A DNA stretch of 64,000 nt from Devosia rhizoryzae. GTDB lineage: Bacteria; Pseudomonadota; Alphaproteobacteria; Rhizobiales; Devosiaceae. The DNA is taken from the NCBI RefSeq assembly GCF_016698665.1, contig NZ_CP068046.1:434001-498000 (forward strand), read 5' to 3'. The position numbers and the translations under genes are program-made. Shown here piece after piece: positions 43,483 through 61,678 of the stretch (positions are counted from its first letter, which is position 1; each line of letters opens with the position of its first letter). The notes beneath the pieces are model-generated. The model was not told the DNA's origin. It was given only the letters and a program-made list of their open reading frames with translations, and ran no database searches.

Positions 43483-43622
43483 CGCCGGACCTTCTCCATG
43501 AGAGTAGTGGAGCAATTCCGACATCGCCGTAGCAGAGCGCTACGACCAGAGGGGCCCGGCATTGCCTCTCTAGAATGCCTATCTGGCGGAAAAGTTCAAG
43601 CGGTCGCGCTGTCGCAGCTGTT

Positions 43623-60377: not shown

Positions 60378-61451
60378 TTAAGCAACGGCCTGGGTGGTCA
60401 CGGCCCGCCGCTTCTCGACCGCATCGGCAAGGGCGTTAAGGGCGGTGACCGTCGTGTCCCAATCAATGCAGCCATCGGTGATGGACTGGCCGTAGACCAG
60501 TTCCTTGCCGGCCACCAGGTCCTGGCAGCCCGCGACGAGGTTGGACTCGATCATGACGCCGATGATACGCCGATCGCCCGCCGCCATCTGGTGGCCGATG
60601 TCGGCAAGGACCTTGGGCTGGTTCTCCGGATCTTTGGACGAATTGGCGTGGCTGGCGTCGATCATGATGGCGGGGTTTAAGCCAGCCTTGGTCGCCGCCT
60701 GGGCCGCGGCCTCGACGCTGGCGGCATCGTAGTTCGTGGTTTTGCCACCGCGCAGAATGATGTGGCAGTCCTCATTGCCGGTGGTCGCGGCAATAGCGGA
60801 GCGGCCGTCCTTGGTGACGGCGAGGAAATGGTGGGGGTGAGAGGCGGAGAGCACCGCGTCTAGAGCGATCTTGACGTTGCCATCGGTGCCGTTCTTGAAG
60901 CCGACTGGGCAGGAAAGTCCCGAGGCCAGTTCACGGTGGATCTGCGATTCGGTGGTGCGTGCGCCGATAGCTGCCCAGGAAACGAGGTCGGCAATGTATT
61001 GTGGCGTCGTCATATCGAGGAATTCGCAGGCCGCCGGCAGCCCGAGATTGTTGACGTCGAGCAGCATCGTGCGGGCCACGTTGAGGCCCTCGGCAATGTT
61101 GAAGCTGCCATCGAGATCGGGATCGTTGATCAGGCCCTTCCAGCCGACCGTCGTGCGGGGCTTTTCGAAGTAGACGCGCATGATGATTTCGAGCCGGTCG
61201 CCGAGCTGTTCGCGCAGCACGACGAGGCGCCGGGCATAGTCCATCGCTGCCTTGGGATCGTGGATGGAGCAGGGGCCAACGACTACGGCGAGCCGGTCGT
61301 CCTGGCCGGTCAGGATATTGTGGAAGGCGTGACGAGCAGCGATGACGGTGCGGGTCGCAGCATCGGTGCGCGGATGCTGGCGTATCACGTCGATCGGCGT
61401 CGGCAGCGGTTTTATTTCGGTGATGCGCAGGTCGTCGGTGGATTTGAGCAT
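60378..61451 (-). CDS. aroG: 3-deoxy-7-phosphoheptulonate synthase (type I)
   Basis: A 357-residue DAHP synthase that joins phosphoenolpyruvate and erythrose 4-phosphate, the first step of aromatic synthesis. Type I marks are VVVGPCSIHDPKAAMDYARRL near residue 57, RVYFEKPRTTVGWKGLINDP near 92, and DASHANSSKDPENQP near 265. The isozyme class (AroF, G or H) cannot be decided from sequence by eye. Alphaproteobacteria often rely on a type II enzyme, so this one may be a second, separately controlled copy. A full attenuator precedes it. Confidence 0.92.
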   Translation of the reverse strand: MLKSTDDLRITEIKPLPTPIDVIRQHPRTDAATRTVIAARHAFHNILTGQDDRLAVVVGPCSIHDPKAAMDYARRLVVLREQLGDRLEIIMRVYFEKPRTTVGWKGLINDPDLDGSFNIAEGLNVARTMLLDVNNLGLPAACEFLDMTTPQYIADLVSWAAIGARTTESQIHRELASGLSCPVGFKNGTDGNVKIALDAVLSASHPHHFLAVTKDGRSAIAATTGNEDCHIILRGGKTTNYDAASVEAAAQAATKAGLNPAIMIDASHANSSKDPENQPKVLADIGHQMAAGDRRIIGVMIESNLVAGCQDLVAGKELVYGQSITDGCIDWDTTVTALNALADAVEKRRAVTTQAVA

Positions 61452-61486: not shown

Positions 61487-61515
61487 AAAAAAGCCGCCTC
61501 GGAAGTCGGGCGGCT
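61487..61515 (-). terminator. Attenuator terminator before the DAHP synthase gene
   Basis: On the minus strand AGCCGCC (61515-61509) pairs with GGCGGCT (61498-61492), followed by a six-T run (61492-61487). It lies 31 bp after the leader-peptide stop and 36 bp before the aroG start. AGCC-A-GCCGCC (61519-61509) can instead pair with GGCGGAGGCT inside the leader (61573-61564), forming an antiterminator. Confidence 0.82.
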
Positions 61516-61545
61516 GGCTTGCGATTTGGTCTGGTCTTGTCGGGA

Positions 61546-61620
61546 TCAGGACGCGCGCGCAAAAGCCTCCGCCGGGAGCGGATAGCTAAAGTACCAATAA
61601 AAGGTGGCGGCGTTGATCAT
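61546..61620 (-). CDS. Aromatic leader peptide of the aroG attenuator (24 residues)
   Basis: ATG at 61620 opens a 24-codon frame ending at TGA 61548-61546. Codons 7 to 13 read Phe-Tyr-Trp-Tyr-Phe-Ser-Tyr, and Phe returns at 20. Six aromatic codons in seven, followed by a terminator with a competing antiterminator, is the classical design for attenuation by charged aromatic tRNAs. No ribosome site is seen; a promoter candidate places the transcript start at or next to the ATG, so a leaderless start is likely, as known for trpL in Sinorhizobium. Confidence 0.82.
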   Translation of the reverse strand: MINAATFYWYFSYPLPAEAFARAS

Positions 61621-61627
61621 GGCGGCA

Positions 61628-61656
61628 AGCTAGCGCGACAGCCGGGACTTTGTCGA
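61628..61656 (-). promoter_or_regulatory. Candidate promoter for the aroG leader
   Basis: On the minus strand TCGACA (61656-61651) resembles a -35 box, and 17 bp later CTAGCT (61633-61628) resembles the alphaproteobacterial -10 (CTATAT). The predicted start is at about 61621, one base from the leader ATG. The -35 also lies in the loop of a GTCGGGACT/AGTCCCGGC hairpin (61640-61663), probably the end of the YCII transcript. Confidence 0.45.
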
Positions 61657-61678
61657 GTCCCGACTTTGGTAGGGGATC

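Follow-up and report, generated by a model that had tools for sequence, protein, structure and literature searches.

Organization of the aroG upstream region

The analysed stretch of DNA, here called the window, covers 64,000 nucleotides of the Devosia rhizoryzae genome. Its minus strand carries aroG (60378..61451), which encodes a type I DAHP synthase (3-deoxy-7-phosphoheptulonate synthase) of 357 amino acids, the enzyme with which aromatic amino acid synthesis begins. This assignment had been proposed in a preliminary description of the locus and was borne out by the family models: the product scored 529 bits with TIGR00034 (aroFGH; cut-off 173) and was also above the cut-off for PF00793. 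Direct reading of the sequence confirmed that a leader with aromatic codons and the layout of an attenuator lies 5' of the gene on the same strand, to which all coordinates of the leader refer.

The leader peptide frame MINAATFYWYFSYPLPAEAFARAS spans 61546..61620 and consists of 24 codons and a stop, with the ATG at 61620 and a TGA ending at 61546. Codons 7-13 (61582..61602) read Phe-Tyr-Trp-Tyr-Phe-Ser-Tyr, exactly as described beforehand. The stop is followed after 30 nt, rather than the 31 given previously, by an intrinsic terminator (AGCCGCC / GGCGGCT, 61487..61515) with a hairpin energy of about -15 kcal/mol. Its reported 7-bp stem and six Ts are present at 61515-61487, with the left arm at 61515-61509, the right arm at 61498-61492 and the T tract at 61492-61487, the first T being paired. 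The distance from the terminator to aroG is 35 nt. A candidate antiterminator could form between segment 2 GGCGGAGGCT, its 5' side, which lies within the leader frame (61564..61573), and segment 3 AGCCAGCCGCC, its 3' side (61509..61519), the last 7 nt of which double as the left terminator arm. The proposed pairing of GGCGGAGGCT with AGCC-AG-CCGCC over 5+4 bp stood, and folding added a third short helix, TGCG/CGCA, that had gone unlisted.

The promoter-like pair TCGACA-N17-CTAGCT is likewise in place upstream of the frame. The -35-like hexamer TCGACA (61651..61656) was assigned from its sequence and from the column composition upstream of 96 leaders, and the -10-like hexamer CTAGCT (61628..61633) leaves 7 nt to the ATG. 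From such a promoter the transcript would be predicted to begin on the A of the ATG (61620) or on an adjacent base and hence to be leaderless.

Searches against family databases gave no assignment for the leader: the peptide matched no NCBIfam family, and a scan of the leader region found no Rfam family at or above its cut-off. The Phe_leader family of Rfam (RF01859) was not listed in the window, and its best score among 14 relatives was 32.6 vs 55 bits (L014). A weak Rfam match to the rhizobial RcsR1 RNA (15 bits vs a cut-off of 60) was considered as a possible identity of the element and dropped, since the Rhizobium-type leaders L064, L078 and L079 were not matched by RcsR1 at E <= 0.5. Elsewhere in the window, a terC RNA (Rfam RF03067) was found on the minus strand at 43509-43567, with 53.6 bits vs a cut-off of 39.9.

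Conservation of the leader and linkage to aroG

Among 80 database relatives of AroG, fetched by the protein alone, 78 had an aromatic-rich frame 5' of the gene; of the two exceptions, L058 was truncated by a contig end and L071 was without a frame. A GGCGG or GGCGC arm together with a run of at least four Ts was present in 77 of the 78 frame-bearing relatives, the remaining one (L019) having three Ts. The alignment proposed in the preliminary description revealed that the aromatic run, the terminator, the competing segment, the promoter register and the missing ribosome site all recur, and the aromatic codons and stems were found to be conserved among the relatives. As judged from these alignments, the relatives from the alpha-, beta- and gammaproteobacteria have the frame, its spacing, the terminator and the promoter register in common.

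The aromatic frame before aroG is not a product of chance. A comparable frame arose in 0.175% of 4000 mononucleotide-shuffled upstream regions and was never combined with a terminator, whereas by the same test, with its crude and strict rules, 49 of the 80 real upstream regions had both the frame and the terminator, 23 the frame only and 8 neither. No comparable frame was seen in 1210 segments of 300 nt taken from both strands of the rest of the 64-kb window. The idea of an untranslated frame, followed by a hairpin that is no more than an ordinary terminator or a chance structure, could draw on a generic consensus scan, which at its thresholds detected neither the leader promoter nor the terminator at this locus, but the shuffle controls and the shared frame, spacing, terminator and promoter register of the three proteobacterial classes make it scarcely credible.

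The leader alignment was built from 100 sources, three of which (L108, L194 and L195) gave no match, leaving 97 aligned rows. Because L099/L197 and L106/L196 each represent one locus retrieved twice and L011 does not differ from L163, 94 of these rows are distinct. We excluded L181 from the counts of leader codons and pairing energies and from the stall folding (n=96); the promoter counts also comprise 96 leaders, one leader having too little upstream DNA. Forty-seven leaders served to build the covariance model R1, in which the terminator pairs were the only pairs specified.

Within 136 Devosiaceae genomes, R1 found the leader in 105 (E <= 1e-6) and AroG was found in 104 (E <= 1e-60), all 104 of which had both. 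At 104 of the 105 AroG places the leader was on the same strand, 28-92 nt upstream (median 38); the other place is a partial match (residues 126-257) with the leader farther upstream. One genome (G405) contains two aroG copies, on C10 and C16, each preceded by a leader of its own. The only Devosiaceae genome with a leader and no AroG match at E <= 1e-60 was G379, where the leader (L204, C99:2433-2568 and on) is without an ATG and its terminator is still able to pair, with one G-U. This leader adjoins what is left of a broken aroG (residues 1-124, spread over two frames), followed by pgsA, the gene that is also located 3' of aroG in the window. G379 is a genome of 2.0 Mb from the same genus as the window.

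Linkage was also evident in 299 genomes sampled across the phylum, where all 39 R1 matches at E <= 3e-8 were located directly 5' of an AroG match, as read by eye from the lists. AroG itself was matched (E <= 1e-60) in 169 of the 299 genomes, with an adjoining leader in at least 43 among the matches listed, so that many genes of the AroG family appear to be without the leader. Two such cases, G262 (AroG identity 66%) and G296 (62%), had no aromatic frame near AroG. At the class level, R1 identified the leader in only 14 of 385 genomes (E <= 1e-6), in a search that used the leader model and not AroG.

Control codons

Both Phe and Tyr codons occurred within the first 17 codons in 96 of 96 leaders, and Trp codons in 74. 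The Phe codons of the leader frames were predominantly TTT (170 of 207 at 78 loci), vs 29 of 447 within the first 340 codons of aroG at the same loci; across the long reading frames of the window, obtained by simple frame picking, TTT accounted for 143 of 518 Phe codons. The preference for the rarer Phe codon in the leaders could possibly reflect slower decoding through wobble pairing or a low degree of RNA structure.

The codons suggest that all three aromatic amino acids may be sensed. A real attenuator that responds to Phe and Tyr alone, or to just one of the two, with the single Trp codon being incidental, is a possible though somewhat doubtful alternative. It would fit the 22 of 96 leaders in which Trp is missing from the control region and the Corynebacterium aroF leader, which has Phe-Tyr-Phe and responds to Phe and not to Tyr according to a summary in a review (PMC11802643). 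The retention of Trp in the other 74 leaders, among them those of the Devosiaceae, the Bradyrhizobium type and some gammaproteobacteria (Stenotrophomonas L066, Dyella L076), argues in the opposite direction, towards sensing of all three.

We also considered that three-amino-acid sensing might be explained by aroG encoding the sole DAHP synthase of each genome. This was rejected because a type II enzyme is present as well, in 57 of 79 genomes searched (of roughly 97 leader-bearing genomes), including that of the window, where the gene is located at G000:C1:1767903-1769216. Leaders without Trp were found both with and without a type II DAHP synthase. The type II gene of the window genome had no aromatic leader, its candidates with three aromatics in eight codons being the tail ends of upstream genes.

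A probable leaderless start

The predicted promoter register and the absence of a ribosome site both recur in the relatives. The best -10-like hexamer ended 5-9 nt 5' of the ATG in 70 of 96 leaders, vs 18% in mononucleotide shuffles, and position -1 was a C in 84 of 96. A Shine-Dalgarno core within -20 to -4 was seen in 2 of 96 leaders; restricting the counts to distinct leaders (n=93) gave 69 for the -10 hexamer and 2 for the Shine-Dalgarno core. Using a limit of 25 nt upstream, the core was present at 76 of 80 aroG starts, in contrast to 3 of 77 leader frames. Common forms in the relatives were CTATAT, CTATAG and CTAGAG for the -10 hexamer and often a GTGACA-like -35 hexamer in the same register. 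Divided by taxonomy, a hexamer ending 4-9 nt before the ATG was present in 18 of 19 leaders from Devosiaceae, 37 of 41 from other alphaproteobacteria and 21 of 32 from beta- and gammaproteobacteria. This grouping covers 92 of the 96 leaders and was taken from record titles and kinship tables; the class name was verified only in the case of Devosia, Achromobacter and Stenotrophomonas. Taken from the promoter position and the missing Shine-Dalgarno sequence, the transcript probably starts at or within 1-2 nt of the leader AUG.

The motif AAAGTCGGGACTCGACA at 61651-61667 of the window (minus strand) overlaps the -35 hexamer. It occurs once in the genome when up to 2 mismatches are allowed, has almost the same sequence in a number of closely related Devosia, and is possibly an extended promoter or an operator.

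Alternative structures of the leader RNA

Compensatory changes, which the preliminary description had suggested looking for in both pairings, were clear for the terminator and weak for the antiterminator. The terminator pairs covary, with 45 cells changed on both sides and none of 500 shuffles as high, in an alignment that was itself fitted to the terminator. For the antiterminator, which is outside the model, the covariation score was 0.075 vs 0.059 in shuffled alignments, with 1 of 500 shuffles as high. Both-side changes (49 of 500 shuffles as high) and further pair types (397 of 500) were ordinary, and 82.2% of the cells could pair vs 79.8% in the shuffles. The antiterminator core is nearly invariant across the leaders. 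In four distinct Rhizobium-type leaders, one antiterminator pair is changed from G-C to A-U, with a U-G pair in the terminator at the same base; this change may represent a single event.

We simulated stalled ribosomes by folding, with the leading edge of the ribosome assumed to lie 12 nt downstream of the first nucleotide in the A site. In 91 of 96 leaders, at least one stall at an aromatic codon gave the antiterminator core a predicted P >= 0.5 as long as the right arm of the terminator had yet to be made. Conversely, the terminator was predicted with P >= 0.9 in 92 of 96 leaders when the ribosome was placed at the stop codon. In the window, every stall at codons 7-11 leaves GGCGGAGGCT free in the model. 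Once the right arm is present, the antiterminator is the preferred form at equilibrium in no more than 20 of the 96, and the window is not among them (P ~0): its terminator is preferred at equilibrium even with GGCGGAGGCT free. Since the terminator wins at equilibrium in this genome, the switch would have to be kinetic and depend on the order of folding, which is plausible. For the untranslated leader RNA, folding predicted a 5' structure and a formed terminator.

In 94 of 96 leaders the pairing between the leader and the terminator arm was stronger than the mean of its shuffles, but it reached p <= 0.05 in only 47 when compared to dinucleotide shuffles; that of the window itself was unexceptional (p ~0.16). 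Consensus folds for individual clades contained the core helix in Devosiaceae and the core plus a second helix of 3 bp in the beta-/gammaproteobacterial set, whereas the fold for the Bradyrhizobium type, where the alignment is shifted, had inner helices and no core. The search pattern, which found 38/49, 37/37 and 15/18 loci in the three clade sets, demanded GGCGG and CCGCC, so that the appearance of the core was to some extent predetermined.

A very improbable alternative is that the translated leader senses a free amino acid through its nascent peptide, in the manner of TnaC, with no stalling at codons. The C-terminal half of the peptide is indeed alike across classes (for example LAEEGTRSI and LAAGGSRSI). 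Yet this part of the frame shares sequence with the antiterminator segment. There, 77 of the 97 aligned leaders use GCG for Ala and 16 have a different frame, which points to a constraint on the RNA. The aromatic run varies in order and composition among the leaders.

A model for the control of aroG

From the observed anatomy we infer, with a probability of about 0.88, that aroG is controlled by a ribosome-dependent transcription attenuator. RNA polymerase would start at or near the leader ATG and a ribosome would begin on the 5'-terminal AUG. With charged Phe, Tyr and Trp tRNAs in plentiful supply, the ribosome would reach the stop codon and cover GGCGGAGGCT, which would allow the terminator to form and the transcript to end near 61487. 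A shortage of any of these tRNAs would instead cause the ribosome to stall at codons 7-11. In the predicted pairing, GGCGGAGGCT would then bind AGCCAGCCGCC before the right arm is synthesized, a step that presumes a favourable order of folding, and aroG would be transcribed. If the leader is left untranslated, the predicted 5' structure and terminator would be expected to lead to termination.

The element shares with the general attenuator class a short frame before a biosynthetic gene, with many codons for the amino acids that the pathway makes, and an intrinsic terminator between the two. The Corynebacterium aroF attenuator, on which Neshat et al. reportedly worked in 2014 as mentioned in citing papers, is one of the nearest known cases. 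As outlined in open-licence texts, the aroR-aroF system of C. glutamicum is a DAHP synthase attenuator in which ribosome stalling raises transcription (PMC11802643, PMC4046766). By these descriptions, on which the likeness is based, it shares with the present leader an aromatic-codon peptide (Phe-Tyr-Phe) before a DAHP synthase gene, but it is actinobacterial, has no Trp codons reported and responds to Phe rather than Tyr. The trpL leader of Sinorhizobium meliloti (rnTrpL/peTrpL) resembles it in being an alphaproteobacterial attenuator with a leaderless frame, the RNA beginning at the leader AUG in the accounts given in PMC7298713 and PMC10117765; in these accounts it differs in controlling trpE(G), in having Trp codons and a peptide of 14 residues, and in its reported trans functions. 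Leaderless leader frames are also mentioned for Streptomyces in PMC8079986. The DAHP synthase genes of E. coli are under the control of repressors, as summarized in PMC11802643, and a term search of open-licence papers, among them PMC4842269, PMC5082802, PMC4833913, PMC2965389, PMC2873474, PMC4603805 and PMC9320726, turned up no description of a proteobacterial aroG leader, although one may have been mentioned earlier elsewhere.

The aroG leader is best filed as a new and widespread ribosome-dependent attenuator, probably leaderless, with codons for all three aromatic amino acids. An attenuator of aroG conserved in alpha-, beta- and gammaproteobacteria would provide a simple, testable rule for the flow of carbon into the pathway. 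The scanned loci had no Rfam match at the cut-off. Such an attenuator would also offer many natural candidates for leaderless translation in regulation. By analogy with rnTrpL/peTrpL, the terminated RNA of 134 nt, which would start with AUG, might serve as a small mRNA or sRNA, with the RNA or the aromatic peptide acting in trans, and the leaders might form a proteobacteria-wide leaderless family that reads Phe, Tyr and Trp with one peptide; we regard this extension of the model as unlikely.

Related leaders of pheS and pheA

The next three R1 matches in the phylum-wide sample, at about 41-43 bits, were not beside AroG. Inspection of two of these, in G154 and G212, identified short aromatic frames before genes named pheS and pheA by NCBIfam, each leader having an aromatic run and a terminator with a U-tract; the leader of pheA is MKLFPFFFAFFFTFP. 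We take the leaders in G212 and G154 to be of the enteric pheL and pheM types, respectively. Leaders of pheA (pheL) and pheST (pheM) differ from the aroG leader in their target gene, and the two inspected here have no Trp codon. Attenuation of pheA and pheST is established in E. coli, as stated in the review cited above (PMC11802643). That a model trained on aroG leaders recovers those of pheS and pheA supports a shared way of working.
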